IMG/VR virus record: IMGVR_UViG_3300032607_000825 | Coordinates: 1 to 30,963 of that record | Strand: one strand, 5' to 3' | Origin: a virus | DNA: 30,963 nucleotides | Part shown: positions 14,739 through 30,005 of the stretch, in pieces | Position numbering within the stretch: the stretch's first letter is position 1 | How the letters are laid out: every line of letters begins with the position of its first letter | Position numbers and translations under genes: made by a program | The notes under the pieces: generated by a model | The model's database searches: none | Told to the model about the DNA's origin: nothing | Seen by the model: the letters and a program-made list of their open reading frames with translations, nothing else

Positions 14739-14747
14739 AATAAATAT
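14739..14747 (-). promoter_or_regulatory. candidate late promoter motif ATATTTATT at the regulator/virion border
   Basis: On the minus strand ATATTTATT begins 19 nt upstream of the ATG at 14728 and touches the stop codon of the sigma-factor gene. It separates early-type genes from virion genes, the place where a late promoter would be expected. Confidence 0.45.
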
Positions 14748-15499
14748 TAATAGTCATTGTTTTCAAGATACTTATTAAGAATGGTTTTGTAGATGTTTTT
14801 TAGCTTTTTAATTACCTTTGTAATGGTATTTGACTGAGTGTCTGCCATTTCTTTAACATAGATAAAGACAGCCTTTTTATTAAAAATGTCTATATTTTCC
14901 CTTTTCTTGAATATCTCTAGGATAGCATCAGCGACCTTTAGCTCCTCTGTTTTGTCAAATAGCTCTAATAAATTGTCATCTACATATTTGATAAAAAGCT
15001 CGACCACATCTAGCTTATCTAGCTCTGGTTCTGGTTCTTTAACAAGGATACTATTTAGAAGGGCATTGTCATCACTTTGATCACCGATCTCTGATTTTGC
15101 TACGAGTTTCTTGTAATTCTTTTGGTTATATATAATCAAATACCTTTTGGCAATTGTACCAAAATAAGAAAATGCCTTACCTTTAGACTGATCGTAAAGG
15201 TCTAATTTTTGCAAAAGAAATGATATTACTTCGTACTTAAGATCTTCTATATTGTCAACCTCAGTATAATAGAACTTAAATGTATGAATGATATTCTCTA
15301 CTAGTTTATAAAACCCGTAGTGAATGTCTTGATTGTAAATCCTATTTTTTTCGTCTTGATTTTTTGTAGACCTATACCTTAGAATTGCTTCCTCAGTTTC
15401 AGAAGTAAAGTAATTATTTTTTGTTTTTGGCTTTCTTTTTCTAGGATCTCCTTTCTTAGTTAATAACACCTCTTCCTCATTCAATAGTATATCACTCAT
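14747..15499 (-). CDS. sigma-70-like late transcription factor (T4 gp55-like)
   Basis: The 250-residue product carries a sigma region-2-like core at residues about 60-130: hydrophobic helices, then EDLKYEVISFLLQKLDLYDQ and SKGKAFSYFGTIAKRYLI. The string 'YD.SKGKAFSYF...AKRYLI' corresponds to sigma region 2.3-2.4, which recognises and melts the -10 box. The N-terminus is Lys-rich (KKGDPRKRKPKTKNN). The C-terminal part is helical and acidic, ending in VIKKLKNIYKTILNKYLENN. T4 gp55 (185 residues) is a reduced sigma that reads late promoters, so this product likely reads the phage's own late promoters. It lies just upstream of the structural block. Confidence 0.75.
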   Translation of the reverse strand: MSDILLNEEEVLLTKKGDPRKRKPKTKNNYFTSETEEAILRYRSTKNQDEKNRIYNQDIHYGFYKLVENIIHTFKFYYTEVDNIEDLKYEVISFLLQKLDLYDQSKGKAFSYFGTIAKRYLIIYNQKNYKKLVAKSEIGDQSDDNALLNSILVKEPEPELDKLDVVELFIKYVDDNLLELFDKTEELKVADAILEIFKKRENIDIFNKKAVFIYVKEMADTQSNTITKVIKKLKNIYKTILNKYLENNDY

Positions 15500-15785: not shown

Positions 15786-16415
15786 TTAATTTGATTCAAT
15801 TTTACTAGCCATCAAATCTGCTTGATGTAGTATATAAGCTATATTAGACCTCAATTCTGTATCTTTATTGTAGGTAATATAATACTGCTTATTTGCTTCT
15901 TCATACAAACCATCATGGAGTCTGATAGCTAAGAACTCGTTTTCTGAAACCTGTATACCGTACTTCTGTAGTACAAATAAACTTCTTTCTGCAATTCTCA
16001 TATGAGCTATAGCAGGGTTGTAATTGAACATAAGACCTTGATTTTCCCTGTGCCATTGTGATTGGTTGGGAATATAAACTGGTTGATCATTTGTACCTAG
16101 TTTACCAAGATCGTGATTAAGTGCTGAGAAAGCTAACTCTTCTGTTGTGTAATTTTTACTCTGGCCAAACTTATCCCAAACCTTTTCAAATACCAAAGCT
16201 GCTTCAGTAACTCTGTTAACATGATCTAAATAACCACCAGCAAAAGCATTGTGATGACTTATTTTGGTAGAGGCAGGAGAAGTAGCTAAAGTCTCTTCAA
16301 TATCCTTGTACATTTCCAGAAGCATATCTTTTCTATCACCAGAAATATACTTACCAATAAAAGAATAAAACTTGGCTAAATTCTCAGCCATTTGCTCAGG
16401 ACTTAATTTTTTCAT
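15786..16415 (-). CDS. HD-domain phosphohydrolase
   Basis: The 209-residue product shows the HD superfamily metal ligands: His65 in GGYLDHVNRV, His101-Asp102 in ALNHDLGKLG, His167 in RLHDG, and Asp200 in LHQADLMA. Flanking helices fit a single HD domain of the usual size. HD enzymes hydrolyse phosphate esters of nucleotides or cyclic nucleotides. In phages they can recycle dNMPs or destroy signalling nucleotides of host defence. Which substrate applies cannot be read from sequence. It belongs to the leftward early-type group, 13 nt from a 58-residue gene upstream and 12 nt from the membrane protein downstream. All key residues appear intact. Confidence 0.8.
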   Translation of the reverse strand: MKKLSPEQMAENLAKFYSFIGKYISGDRKDMLLEMYKDIEETLATSPASTKISHHNAFAGGYLDHVNRVTEAALVFEKVWDKFGQSKNYTTEELAFSALNHDLGKLGTNDQPVYIPNQSQWHRENQGLMFNYNPAIAHMRIAERSLFVLQKYGIQVSENEFLAIRLHDGLYEEANKQYYITYNKDTELRSNIAYILHQADLMASKIESN

Positions 16416-16614: not shown

Positions 16615-16935
16615 TTACAACTTTATTGTGTACTCTATCAATTGATCTATAGAGTGAAAGGCCTTACCTTTAACTTTATTATTAAACATAATTTTTTTAC
16701 TTATATCTTCATATGTATTTGCTACATAGATTATCTCTTCTATAATAGAAGCATTTAACATTTTTAATACTATAGGATAGTTAGAACAGCCTGTTAAATC
16801 TTCAATAGAATCACAAATTTCCGTATCCGATTTACAAACTTCATATTCGTAATCAATATAGTTATTATTTAATTCCTGTTTTAATTTTTTGCATTTACTA
16901 CAATCTTCTAATACTAATAATTTAATCTTGTTCAT
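16615..16935 (-). CDS. glutaredoxin-like thiol redox protein
   Basis: The 106-residue product begins MNKIKLLVLEDCSKCKKLKQ: a beta strand followed by a Cys12-Ser-Lys-Cys15 active site. Later comes TGCSNYPIVLKM with Pro54 in the place of the cis-proline of thioredoxin folds. Length is right for a glutaredoxin. Phage glutaredoxins and thioredoxins usually supply electrons to ribonucleotide reductase or maintain thiol proteins. No reductase gene is in this window, so the partner is unknown. The start codon lies inside the end of the upstream 55-residue gene (14-nt overlap), implying coupled translation. The CSKC motif is less common than CPYC. Confidence 0.7.
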   Translation of the reverse strand: MNKIKLLVLEDCSKCKKLKQELNNNYIDYEYEVCKSDTEICDSIEDLTGCSNYPIVLKMLNASIIEEIIYVANTYEDISKKIMFNNKVKGKAFHSIDQLIEYTIKL

Positions 16936-17089
16936 AAAATTCTTTATCTATTTTTTGCATAATTTCATACCACATTTCTTTTTCTTCATCTTTCATAGTT
17001 TCAAATGTCATTGATAAATAAATATATAGCGCATCTAATTGCTCTTCTGTTAATTTATCTCCTTCTATTTGAAAATCTTCTGCTTGCAT
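16922..17089 (-). CDS. 55-residue acidic helical protein, first leftward gene
   Basis: A frame from ATG 17089 to a stop at 16922 encodes 55 residues starting MQAEDFQIEGDKLTEEQLDA, then LYIYLSMTFETMKDEEKEMW and an acidic end. It is helical and strongly acidic. Its end overlaps the glutaredoxin-like gene by 14 nt. It is the first open frame after the leftward promoter near 17357-17393 and its long leader. Small acidic early proteins of phages often bind host enzymes; that role is only a possibility. Compact spacing and plausible composition support it as a true gene. Confidence 0.55.
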   Translation of the reverse strand: MQAEDFQIEGDKLTEEQLDALYIYLSMTFETMKDEEKEMWYEIMQKIDKEFYEQD

Positions 17090-17350
17090 AATAGCTAGTT
17101 TAAAGGTATTTATCCTTTTTTTAGAGTGTAATTGACTTTGTTTTTCATCTGTAGCTTATACCTAAAACCCTTTAGCGGACTAAACCGTCGGATATGGCCG
17201 ATATTATTTTAGGCTTTCACTACTAACTATTTTTGTATACCTGAAGCATATATTGGTCTTTACTCCTGGTAGTCGTATGGCTTACTCATTCTAAAACTCA
17301 CTCATGGAATTTAACCAAGCTATGGCATAGAGCCTGAGTATATGACGTTA
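17090..17350 (-). ncRNA. structured leader RNA or small RNA downstream of the leftward early promoter
   Basis: This is the only gene-free stretch above 300 bases. It is more GC-rich than its surroundings and can fold. The outer stem 17161-17167 pairs with 17207-17213 (7 bp). Inside are two hairpins: 17171-17175 with 17180-17184 (loop of 4), and 17188-17191 with 17198-17201 (loop of 6). Together these make a three-way junction. A second set, 17222-17227 with 17347-17352 (6 bp) and 17236-17240 with 17338-17342 (5 bp), encloses the rest. All listed pairs are Watson-Crick. Promoter placement suggests leftward transcription into the 55-residue gene. It contains a tiny frame (17148 to 17110, 12 residues, MKNKVNYTLKKG). 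No known riboswitch or tRNA is recognised. Confidence 0.4.
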
Positions 17351-17356
17351 GTTTTA

Positions 17357-17393
17357 CTAATATACAACAAATATTTGAAACAGAAAAATTTAT
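17357..17393 (-). promoter_or_regulatory. leftward early promoter, copy A of a 37-bp element
   Basis: Read on the minus strand, this 37-bp stretch is identical at 34 of 37 positions to the one at 29708-29744. The last 17 bases, TATTTGTTGTATATTAG, are exact, and the upstream T-rich tract and TTTCAA also match. A TATATT box with a conserved upstream box at fixed spacing is what a sigma-70-class promoter needs. Transcription would start near 17350 and run left through the structured leader. Confidence 0.65.
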
Positions 17394-17404
17394 TTTAATA
17401 AATA

Positions 17405-17436
17405 TTTTTTTATGTCATTTTTTTGTCTTATATTTG
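17405..17436 (+). promoter_or_regulatory. rightward early promoter, copy C, adjoining the primase start
   Basis: Aligned without gaps, 26 of 32 positions match the element at 29713-29744: seven T, then AT.TCA, a TTTG, and TATATT. Its end, TATATTTG, fits the Bacteroidota -7 consensus TAnnTTTG. It lies back to back with copy A and only 4 nt before the primase ATG, so the primase mRNA may be nearly leaderless. Confidence 0.6.
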
Positions 17437-17440
17437 ATAG

Positions 17441-18370
17441 ATGGACAAAGAGTTGCTCGTATTAGGATTATTAGAAACAGTTCTTGGTAAAGGAAAAGGT
17501 TCTAAAACCACTATGGATTATGCATTCTATTGCCCAGTATGTAAGCACCATAATCCTAAATTAATAGTGAATATTAAGTCTGGACAATATAATTGTTGGA
17601 CTTGCCATCCTGCTACTAAAGGTAGAACTCCTGTATCACTCTTAAAAAAAGTAGATGCTCCTACTGAGAGGATTCTTGAAATGAAGAACTACTTTCAAGG
17701 AGATAATACTAAGATTGATACCACTAAACCAAATAAGGTAACCCTACCAGAAGAATTTCTTTCCTTATACAACCCAGATAAATCTCTTGAGTGTCGACAT
17801 GCTTTGACTTATCTAAAGAAAAGAAACATTTCTATTCAAGACATACAAAAGTATAATATTGGATACTGTAAGACAGGTAGATATAGGAATAGAATCATAG
17901 TTCCTTCTTATGATAAAAACGGTAATATAAACTATTTTATAGCCAGATCATTTGAACCAGACCCATCTCGTAAATATGATGCTCCAAGTTGTAATAAAAC
18001 AGAACTTATAGGTCTAGAGTACTTTGTTAATTGGTCTATTCCTATTATATTATGTGAAGGTATTTTTGATGCCATTGCAATTAAACGAAATGCCATTCCT
18101 TTATTTGGTAAAACTATTCCTCAGTCACTCATGATGAAATTAGTAGAATCTGAAGTAAAAACAGTATATTTAGCATTAGATAAAGATGCTCTTAAAGAAG
18201 CTCTTAATTATTCACAAAATCTTCTTAATCTTGGTAAAGAAGTTTATTTAATAGAATTAGAAGGTAAAGATCCTTCTGAGCTTGGTTTTAATAGTATGAC
18301 CAAGTTATTACATACTGCGAAGCCAATGTCTTTCGGAGACCTGCTTCTCAAAAAAATACAACTAATATGA
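17441..18370 (+). CDS. DnaG-type DNA primase (zinc finger plus TOPRIM)
   Basis: The 309-residue product has an N-terminal zinc ribbon with Cys31, Cys34, Cys52 and Cys55 (YCPVCKHHNP, NCWTC), as in CHC2-type primases. A linker with a PSYDKNGNINYFIARS segment (about 155-170) follows. The TOPRIM core has the Glu motif in IPIILCEGIFDAIAI (Glu206) and the Asp motif in YLALDKDALKEA (Asp247, Asp249). It should synthesise RNA primers for lagging strands, working with the phage helicase (not in this window), as T4 gp61 does. It is shorter than bacterial DnaG, normal for phages. The stop overlaps the next start by 4 nt. A later in-frame ATG at codon 25 is possible if the mRNA starts at 17441 or beyond. 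Confidence 0.88.
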   Translation: MDKELLVLGLLETVLGKGKGSKTTMDYAFYCPVCKHHNPKLIVNIKSGQYNCWTCHPATKGRTPVSLLKKVDAPTERILEMKNYFQGDNTKIDTTKPNKVTLPEEFLSLYNPDKSLECRHALTYLKKRNISIQDIQKYNIGYCKTGRYRNRIIVPSYDKNGNINYFIARSFEPDPSRKYDAPSCNKTELIGLEYFVNWSIPIILCEGIFDAIAIKRNAIPLFGKTIPQSLMMKLVESEVKTVYLALDKDALKEALNYSQNLLNLGKEVYLIELEGKDPSELGFNSMTKLLHTAKPMSFGDLLLKKIQLI

Positions 18371-27794: not shown

Positions 27795-29711
27795 ATGCCA
27801 GTGAGTAACCAAGATATATTAAAGACTATACTCTTACAAGAGTTAGATAGGATGGAGCCTGAAACTTCTACGTTTGAGGATGATCCTATGCAGTTCATAT
27901 TGAAGAAGTATGCAGGACTTAAGAACACTCTTGAGTATCTTATGACTCCTTCATTTGAAGAGTATATTACTGGTATATATGTAGTTGCTCCTAAGCCAAC
28001 AACATTTAAAGTTGTTCTACATAATGGCCAATTCTTTTTCTTGCAGTTTATGGGCAAAGCCTATGAAGCAACTGTAGAAGGAAGGAAATACTATTTAATG
28101 TCTATTGGTGAGAAAGAAAGATGCATGGTTGCAATATCAAGGCTTCTTAGGTTTGGTAACCCGTTAAAGACTAAAGGACCAGATGGAGCAGAACAAGCAA
28201 CTAGAGATTCAGAAGGACCTACAGAAGAAGCAGGACCAACACCACCAGCAGAAAAATCAGCACCAGAAGCAGGAGGAGAAGAGTTGACAGAGTCTAGTAT
28301 ATTAGAAAGTATTTTAAAAAAAAACCTAACTACTGAATTAACTATAAGCCCTGATTATAAAACAAAATCAGGATTTAATCCATACTATACTGTAAAAGAC
28401 GATCTAAAAAACGATATAGCAAAACAGCTTAAGATTGATCCTAGCAAAATTGTATTTAAAAGTACTAATGATCCTAAAGGAAAACCTGCAATAGATAGAA
28501 AAGGCGGATACTCTTTTCAAATTGGTATAGATCAAAATGGAAATATTAAAGATACAAACTACTACGTAAAAAGTAGTAAAGCAGATGTAACAGGACACTA
28601 CGGTACAGAAAAAAGAAAAGATGCTACTGCATCTTCTAATGTCAATGAATTTTTGACTGTTTATTTTTTAATAAATAATTTTAAAGGAACGCCTAAAGAA
28701 TTTATAAAGTTTGTTAAAAGCAAAAAAGGATCAACTGGGGTTAACACAGGAGACGGATCTGATGTATCATATGAAATGTTATCTAAGCTTCTTGATAAAG
28801 ATGAGACTCCTGAAAGAGATATTGCTATAGGAATGAATAATGCGAAAGCTGTTAAGGCTGATATAGGAGGGAACACTAAATCTATTTCTCAAGTGTATTG
28901 GACACCTAGAACAAAACCTGAAGGAGTGGGCAGTAAAAATCCATCTGATGTATTTATTAAATTTAAAGATGGAACTTTTTTAGGATACTCAAATAAAATA
29001 ACTGATAAAGGACCAGATTCTACTCCTAAATTTAATACAAGTCTTTCTGCATTTGCTAGTAAGCTAGAAGATAAAAATCAAGACAAAAATATAAAGCAAA
29101 TAGTTGACAGCTCTTGGAATCAAGCCGCAGAATCAATAATGACAAATACATCTTTAAAAGCACCTAATACTAAAAAAGCGCTTAAAGATTTTAATATTGA
29201 AAAAGAAAACCATTCTGAAACAACTAGTAGAGGGTCATTTGCAAATCTAGCCAGAGAGTTTGAAAAAGATGGACTTGATTTTTACGGAAAAGATTTCTAT
29301 TATTTGTTTAGAAATCAGTTAATACAAAATATGGGAGCCTATTGGAAAAAACCCAAAAACTTAAACTATTTACTTAAAACAATTGCATACTACACTTATG
29401 GAGAAGTAAACCCAGAAGTTAATGATGCACCTTATAAATTACTTATAGGAACAGAAACTGGATCAACAATAAAAGATGTTACTTCTGATGATGAGTCTAA
29501 AATGATGCTTACTAAATCTAGTCCTGAAAATATTAAAAAAATAGAATATACATATCTAGGAACAGGACAATCTTTTGATATTAAATTTTATAGTGATTTA
29601 ATAAAATCAAATGTACTTATTCCCTTAACACTAAGAACTAGAGCGTCAGGTGGATGGGCAGGAAAATCACTTTATATTAATACTCCAGGATTAAAAATAG
29701 GAGAAAAATAA
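27795..29711 (+). CDS. large leader-bearing protein with putative restriction-fold nuclease domain
   Basis: The 638-residue product has four parts. Residues 1-20 (MPVSNQDILKTILLQELDRM) are a leader with LQE. Residues 28-125 are a compact domain. Residues 126-165 are a Pro/Glu/Ala linker followed by a second leader-like segment (TESSILESILKKNL, 165-178). Residues 185-638 are a large domain with NPSDVFIKFKDGTFLGYSNK (382-401): Asp385 and Ser399-x-Lys401 could be a PD...(S/E)xK nuclease site as in some type II restriction enzymes, followed by GPDSTPKFNTSLSAFAS. No other catalytic motif is visible. If packaged and injected, it could cut host DNA; that is inference. Start is 3 nt after the previous stop. 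Confidence 0.55.
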   Translation: MPVSNQDILKTILLQELDRMEPETSTFEDDPMQFILKKYAGLKNTLEYLMTPSFEEYITGIYVVAPKPTTFKVVLHNGQFFFLQFMGKAYEATVEGRKYYLMSIGEKERCMVAISRLLRFGNPLKTKGPDGAEQATRDSEGPTEEAGPTPPAEKSAPEAGGEELTESSILESILKKNLTTELTISPDYKTKSGFNPYYTVKDDLKNDIAKQLKIDPSKIVFKSTNDPKGKPAIDRKGGYSFQIGIDQNGNIKDTNYYVKSSKADVTGHYGTEKRKDATASSNVNEFLTVYFLINNFKGTPKEFIKFVKSKKGSTGVNTGDGSDVSYEMLSKLLDKDETPERDIAIGMNNAKAVKADIGGNTKSISQVYWTPRTKPEGVGSKNPSDVFIKFKDGTFLGYSNKITDKGPDSTPKFNTSLSAFASKLEDKNQDKNIKQIVDSSWNQAAESIMTNTSLKAPNTKKALKDFNIEKENHSETTSRGSFANLAREFEKDGLDFYGKDFYYLFRNQLIQNMGAYWKKPKNLNYLLKTIAYYTYGEVNPEVNDAPYKLLIGTETGSTIKDVTSDDESKMMLTKSSPENIKKIEYTYLGTGQSFDIKFYSDLIKSNVLIPLTLRTRASGGWAGKSLYINTPGLKIGEK

Positions 29712-29744
29712 ATTTTTTTATTTCAATTATTTGTTGTATATTAG
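29708..29744 (+). promoter_or_regulatory. rightward early promoter, copy B of the 37-bp element
   Basis: Identical at 34 of 37 positions to the minus-strand element at 17357-17393, with exact agreement over TATTTGTTGTATATTAG. It overlaps the stop codon of the large gene and ends 15 nt before the ATG at 29760. Conservation over a noncoding stretch, in opposite orientation, marks it as a promoter. Confidence 0.65.
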
Positions 29745-29759
29745 CCATAAATTAATAAC

Positions 29760-30005
29760 ATGGCAAAAAAAGATACAATCTATAGAACAATAAATACTAT
29801 AGAAGGAACAACAATCCACATTTACGAAGACGATAAAGGTGCTACAAAACCACATTGTGCCACAGGTCCTGCTATCCTTTATGGAAAAGGACATAACAAA
29901 CAAGACGAATACTATTTGTTTGGAGTCAAGTACAATTATGATAGATGGCTAGAATTATCTAGGCCTTTAAGGAAAGTACTTACCAAAGAAGATTTTGTTG
30001 ATTGA
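29760..30005 (+). CDS. small protein of unknown function under an early-type promoter
   Basis: The 81-residue product reads MAKKDTIYRTINTIEGTTIH at the start and contains a strand-turn motif CATGPAILYGKGHNKQDEYY with LFGVKYNYDRW. The TGPA.....G....EYYLFG pattern is like short phage beta-repeats (DGPA...EWWVNG) I recall from many large phages, function unknown. No leader. It is preceded by the 37-bp promoter, so it is probably expressed early and independently of the cargo genes. A late-type motif then follows it before the next gene. Confidence 0.55.
   Translation: MAKKDTIYRTINTIEGTTIHIYEDDKGATKPHCATGPAILYGKGHNKQDEYYLFGVKYNYDRWLELSRPLRKVLTKEDFVD

Follow-up and report, generated by a model that had tools for sequence, protein, structure and literature searches.

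Large structured RNAs known from phages are few, and the timing of gene expression in Bacteroidota phages is little understood. The kind closest to the RNA described here is represented by manA (RF01745) and wcaG (RF01761), large conserved RNAs that are likely 5′ leaders of T4-like cyanophage operons (PMC2864571). Our RNA resembles them as a large conserved RNA in the likely leader of a phage operon, but it has no Rfam match and another fold, and it precedes a predicted late-sigma/tail operon instead of metabolic genes. The nearest functional model is the operator of T4 gene 32, a pseudoknot upstream of the start codon that is absent from some relatives (PMC535899). Here, too, a pseudoknot is found before a phage start codon and is missing in some relatives; however, the T4 pseudoknot comprises ~28 nt and has a known repressor, whereas our RNA has ~250 nt, several helices, and no known repressor. 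As a candidate structured leader heading a long operon, it is also reminiscent of HK022 putRNA and the Bacillus EAR/epsC RNA, but it is not homologous to them, and its operon has no excess of terminators.

In the open literature, with few subscription papers covered, no description of this RNA or promoter was found. The structured RNA is previously unlisted; its kind, the structured leaders of phages, is already known. It would represent a further RNA family, strongly supported by comparative analysis, in front of a predicted late sigma operon, and the phage-type promoter motif is usable for annotating transcription units of uncultured phages.

The window, i.e., the whole stretch of DNA analyzed, is an entire virus record of 30,963 bp (Table 1). 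The virus is a member of a tailed-phage clade related to Flavobacterium phage immuto, which is one of the closest annotated relatives together with Microcystis phage Mel-JY01 (identity of the baseplate protein, ~44%). Judged from this kinship and from the -7 box of the promoters, the host probably belongs to the Bacteroidota. Mel-JY01 (PP395634.1; L099, L224), whose primase, sigma-like, and baseplate proteins are 37 to 44% identical to those of the window, clusters with immuto, and its cyanobacterial host label may merit a check.

Table 1. Features of the promoter-RNA locus and its surroundings in the window
Feature	Position	Strand	Remarks
Promoter copy 1	17357-17393	-	-33-like TTTT, -7 TATATTAG; predicted +1 at 17352
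Promoter copy 2	29708-29744	+	Precedes 81-aa gene; predicted +1 at 29749, 11-nt leader
Promoter copy 3, diverged	17403-17436	+	TATATTTG; before primase; self-complementary BLAST match, PWM 19.9; kept in relatives
81-aa protein gene behind copy 2	29760-30005	+	No Pfam or PHROG match
Structured RNA core, 217 nt	17133-17349	-	Helices P1-P6 and PK1; CM match 254.6 bits; covariation
P1	17346-17340 with 17278-17272	-	Covarying helix; encloses 5′ domain
T-loop-like hairpin UGG-UUAAAUU-CCA	17305-17317	-	Stem nearly invariant
PK1, 3-bp pseudoknot	17256-17258 GAC (P2 loop) with 17134-17136 GUC	-	Covariation
PK2 5′ strand UAAAGG	17169-17174	-	Between P6 and P4 3′ strand
PK2 3′ strand CCUUUA	17101-17106	-	Begins 17 nt before AUG at 17089
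p55, 55-aa acidic protein, first gene after RNA	16922-17089	-	Downstream in nearly all RNA-bearing relatives
Glutaredoxin-like gene	16615-16935	-	PF00462, E 1.8e-4, just below curated cut-off
HD phosphohydrolase-like gene	15786-16415	-	phrog_28876, 5.5e-13
gp55-type late sigma factor (predicted)	14747-15499	-	AlphaFold model, VIA structure match
DNA primase	17441-18370	+	Divergent; phrog_47, 1.6e-42

Promoter element

The preliminary description had reported a 37-bp promoter element that occurs once on each strand. Both copies are present as described: copy 1 (ATAAATTTTTCTGTTTCAAATATTTGTTGTATATTAG) and copy 2 (ATAAATTTTTTTATTTCAATTATTTGTTGTATATTAG) agree without gaps at 34 of 37 positions, and the 17-bp identical core makes up their last 17 positions. 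Exact matches to this core are found in the window only in these two copies; with up to three mismatches there are 4 matches, compared to 0.71 ± 0.80 in dinucleotide shuffles. The pair is real but incomplete, since a search of the whole record revealed a third, divergent copy on the plus strand, 12 bp from copy 1 and pointing away from it. The assertion that both copies lie just upstream of a gene is right for copy 2 but not for copy 1; its next ORF starts 268 bp off, and these 268 bp are a structured RNA and not a mere intergenic stretch. In related contigs, copy 1 is kept ahead of the same noncoding sequence (e.g., L001, L010, and L028) and copy 2 ahead of the same 81-aa gene (L010, L011, L013, L023, L034, and L048).

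Two distant copies that are nearly identical over a long stretch might also be the remnant of a recombination event or of a mobile element and not promoters at all. We regard this as hardly credible in view of the orientation of the copies, their spacing to genes, the third copy, and the -7 box; moreover, the motif also precedes unrelated genes in other phages.

A weight matrix (PWM) built from 19 distinct viral sites gave scores of 44.6 at 29711-29744 (plus strand), 43.6 at 17357-17390 (minus strand), and 19.9 at 17403-17436 (plus strand), with a Markov-null maximum of 10.3; because the training sites all share the 17-mer, the first two scores are high by construction, and that of the third copy is the informative one. 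One more weak site (14.5) falls inside a gene. Each of the contig's three transcription units has one of the three promoter sites at its head, in the correct orientation and at a position kept in relatives. Such an arrangement within 31 kb, together with the positional conservation and a Bacteroidota-like -7 box, supports the promoter reading well. Scans for E. coli-type promoters gave matches at chance level.

Promoters of Bacteroidota hosts have the consensus TAnnTTTG at -7 and TTTG at -33 (PMC6847099, PMC7366714), and we placed +1 by the Flavobacterium johnsoniae rule, which counts the G of the -7 element as position -5 (PMC6847099). The phage element resembles these primary-sigma promoters in its layout, the spacing of the -33 block, and, in part, its -7 box. 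The -7 element matches TAnnTTTG exactly at the primase site (TATATTTG) and reads TATATTAG at copies 1 and 2, and its last two positions vary widely in relatives. The element differs from host promoters in that TTTT stands at -33 in the window (several other phages with the same spacer have TTTG), the G at -5, nearly invariant in hosts, is not retained among relatives (TATATTAG, TATATTGG, TATATTTA, and TATATTCA), and the spacer carries an extended conserved block, TTTCAAATATTTGTTG, which turns up in host genomes about as often as expected by chance. These differences and a frequency near chance in host-like genomes weaken the earlier suggestion of a strong host-type promoter. Its alternative, a putative specific regulator, fits better, given the block TTTTTNTNTTTCAAA conserved around -35 to -22.

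In the viral collection, the 17-mer occurs in 54 stretches, TTTG or TTTT stands at the -33 place in 36 of the 57 sites seen in loci, and a TATATT box precedes the RNA at a fixed short distance in 39 of 39 distinct relatives. In cellular genomes, the motif has 4 matches in 257 Gb (the whole GTDB contig set) and, with one mismatch allowed, 8 matches in 249 genomes of the Capnocytophaga family, compared to 4 with a reversed control. From this recurrence in diverse viruses and the near-chance counts in cells, we draw the well-supported prediction, based on sequence, that the element is a phage-type promoter on the Bacteroidota -33/-7 plan with a conserved spacer absent from host promoters. The best explanation is that it would serve as the main promoter type of the immuto-related clade. 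Three other large viral contigs (L114, L115, L117, and other sites in G002, G004, and G005) have 7 to 16 related promoter copies of the form TTTGGN..TATTTTTTGTATATTTG or TTTTTTT..TATATTTA, and these copies could help to delimit the transcription units there.

In the region 17403-17443 (plus strand), the -7 element of the primase promoter lies exactly 4 nt ahead of the ATG, and so it does in most of 29 relatives. Since the F. johnsoniae rule puts the start site on the A of this ATG (17441), we predict a conserved leaderless primase mRNA, opposite a long structured leader on the other strand.

Structured RNA

The stretch from 17356 to 17090 on the minus strand contains no ORF, yet other contigs have kept it immediately after the promoter. 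It contains a structured RNA of ~250 nt (~17352-17101) that is found at the same site in >50 viral contigs. Homologues were gathered by pattern scans and by primase- and HD-guided searches; the pattern-scan matches L080, L083, L086, L088, L091, L092, L093, and L095 were discarded as chance matches. In a plain MAFFT alignment of 30 homologues (A3), which was not fitted to the model, 20 of 59 proposed pairs have changes on both sides. A second alignment (A8; 41 distinct sequences with 53 to 97% identity) was aligned to the model, and its pair counts therefore lean toward the model: 95.1% of the cells are paired over 54 named pairs, and 36 of the 54 have double changes (0/500 shuffles). Double-change cells number 339, compared to 90.5 ± 9.0 in shuffles and 33 to 62 in structures slid by 1 to 3 columns. 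Covariation thus exceeds the controls for column composition and relatedness, and the existence of a structured RNA is close to certain. The fold emerged only from the alignment, single-sequence folding of the window RNA being not significant (z, -0.90).

Searches for known or cellular counterparts were negative. Rfam has no match in the window at the gathering threshold, and permissive thresholds gave only chance matches for four family members (best E, 0.8 or worse). When the RNA region was compared with GenBank phages at the nucleotide level, only chance matches with 14% coverage emerged. The RNA models had no credible match in the whole genomes of immuto, Mel-JY01, and LR756508, those of the weak matches that were inspected being in coding or repeat-rich DNA, and none was found in 249 genomes of the Capnocytophaga family under stricter filters, which do not prove absence. 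A tRNA or tmRNA was ruled out by ARAGORN.

The RNA is composed of a 5′ domain (P1 and a T-loop-like hairpin), the P2 hairpin, a 3′ domain (P3 to P6), and two long-range pairings whose 3′ strands both lie at the end of the RNA. By sequence, the loop of the hairpin UGG-N7-CCA fits the T-loop pattern and may be called T-loop-like. P2 (UACC-A-GGAGC/GCUUC-A-GGUA) is nearly invariant, and P5 (UCGG/CCGA) and P6 (CGG/CCG) are almost fixed; in P3 and P4, the sequence varies freely while pairing is maintained. The first long-range pairing, PK1, occurs as GAC/GUC, GAU/AUC, and GGU/GCC across relatives. The second, PK2, links the joint after P6 to the spacer ahead of the next gene. Its paired changes are plainly visible lineage by lineage (UAAAGG/CCUUUA, UAGGG/CCCUA, CAGGG/CCCUG, ACAGGG/CCCUGU, UAGAG/CUCUA, UAUAG/CUAUA, and UAAGGG/CCCUUA). 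With 16 lineage representatives, the PK2 score was 13.3 with the own spacer, 11.04 ± 0.44 with swapped spacers (0/5000), and 9.0 ± 0.5 with shuffled ones, the permutation value being optimistic because PK2 was spotted in, and then tested on, the same sequences. The 3′ strand starts 14 to 24 nt before the AUG in most lineages and 31 to 37 nt before it in L179, L182, and L186; in L190 it is farther away, with the pair AAGGU/ACCUU beyond the 60-nt test range. In the clade of the window, the 3′ strand can alternatively form a local hairpin, AAAGG (17114-17118)/CCUUU, which several lineages do not have. A pairing of the P6-internal loop to the 3′ side (UUUAG/CUAAA) was dropped, as it fits only the clade of the window.

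The pairings also bear on the idea that the promoter is all that matters and that the structure of the conserved stretch downstream serves some other end, for example, mRNA stability. T4-like phages use mRNA end structures, and the promoter is conserved as well. However, two long-range pairings, ~220 constrained nt, and 36 double-change pairs far exceed a protective 5′ hairpin, which makes this explanation quite improbable.

Gene order and history of the RNA

In all relatives with enough flanking sequence, the divergent primase gene is followed by the RNA and then by the genes of the small acidic, glutaredoxin-like, HD, sigma-like, and baseplate/tail proteins, in this order. The RNA is thus fixed 5′ of the operon and on the same strand. 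Mapped on the primase tree, presence or absence of the RNA takes three changes (2 to 3 on bootstrap trees); this implies an ancestral RNA with one gain and two losses and is compatible with a single origin. Two RNA-less sister clades retain the divergent layout with a gap of only 140 to 180 nt. Because they lost the RNA while keeping this layout, the RNA is not indispensable. In the RNA-less sisters L237 (1701-1859) and L252 (1870-2026), a promoter-like box is still present, and the place of the RNA is taken by purine-rich leaders (AAGGGGACACAACAAGGGG in L237 and GGGGGAAGGGGGAGGAGG in L252).

Downstream operon

The operon behind the RNA has a length of at least 17 kb, and its fourth conserved product is predicted to be a late sigma factor of the gp55 type. 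Sequence profiles for this protein are weak (phrog_1740 in 3 of 10 members, best value 0.0041; Pfam Sigma70_r2, E 0.15), and a profile search of PDB sequences found nothing. Its AlphaFold model is of moderate quality (mean pLDDT, 73.9) and suggests a sigma region 2 fold: the best VIA match is T4 gp55 (7d7c_F; Z, 10.0; rmsd, 2.9 over 107 residues), and sigma factors predominate among the matches listed. The modeled fold of residues 29 to 141 resembles gp55, but the identity is only 15%, and the protein of the window has extra C-terminal helices.

An RNA that is transcribed first in such a long operon could act in processive antitermination, as HK022 put and the Bacillus EAR/epsC RNA do, and allow the polymerase to read through the late operon, and RNAs of this kind are known in phages (HK022 put [PMC9378689]). 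However, the number of terminator-like sites in the operon is at chance level (7 compared to 5.4 expected), and without an excess of terminators antitermination becomes less likely; furthermore, two clades manage without the RNA. We consider this function unlikely.

Function of the RNA

We lean toward the RNA being a cis-acting phage leader that, under the element promoter, tunes expression of the predicted late-sigma/tail operon, a reading that has a somewhat better than even chance. The conservation of the element, the fold, its position, and the synteny are shown, and a model built on them would run as follows. Copy 1 would start transcription ~6 nt before P1 (17352), and with this predicted start the RNA would be the 5′ end of the operon transcript. 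A ligand, or a protein of the phage or the host, may gate how the leader folds; the gated fold could set ribosome loading at p55 or transcription run-on and would thereby tune the expression of the operon. Bacteroidota hosts do not have Shine-Dalgarno signals, and their translation initiation is tuned by mRNA structure (PMC6847099). Since PK2 adjoins the start codon in such hosts, a cis-acting leader is the best reading. More tentatively, and with a clearly smaller probability, the RNA, with its T-loop-like hairpin and the two long-range pairings, may be a phage-specific switch that detects a metabolite or protein of the infected cell and determines when the gp55-type late sigma and tail operon of Bacteroidota phages is expressed. 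As to a small-ligand riboswitch, the downstream genes suggest no ligand.

The highly conserved 217-nt core could also mean an RNA acting in trans, cut from the leader and binding a phage or host protein or RNA, with the adjacency of p55 being inherited synteny. Such a role would be in line with the very strong local conservation (an almost invariant P2 stem and the near-invariant AAUAUCGG..CCGACGG), with the T-loop-like hairpin, with the promoter being of the strongest type, and with the persistence of the operon where the RNA was lost. On the other hand, the RNA is single copy in G001 and G007 and has no other location in the records searched, PK2 anchors the fold in the spacer at a rather constant distance from the next AUG, and there is no terminator-like U tract at the RNA end. 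A trans-acting RNA is rather doubtful, although less so than antitermination. The function of the RNA, as a cis-acting leader or otherwise, can be tested directly with the fold, the predicted start site, and the sister phages that naturally lack the RNA.

Other features of the contig

Several unrelated ORFs between 19176 and 29711 (plus strand) share a type of short amphipathic N terminus (MIKLLDLLKEQ, MIKLLDILLEM, MIKLIQLLNEV, MIKLKDILNEV, MKLKELLQQLVEE, MNKLDILKQILILE, and ..DILKTILLQEL). This N terminus could be a leader with an LxE site that serves in capsid targeting or is removed by a protease, as in the internal proteins of T4. The ORF at the contig end (1-852, minus strand) contains extended tracts that are rich in Thr and have AAP spacers (TTTTTTTSTTSTTTTAAP repeats); slippage may cause these tracts to vary.
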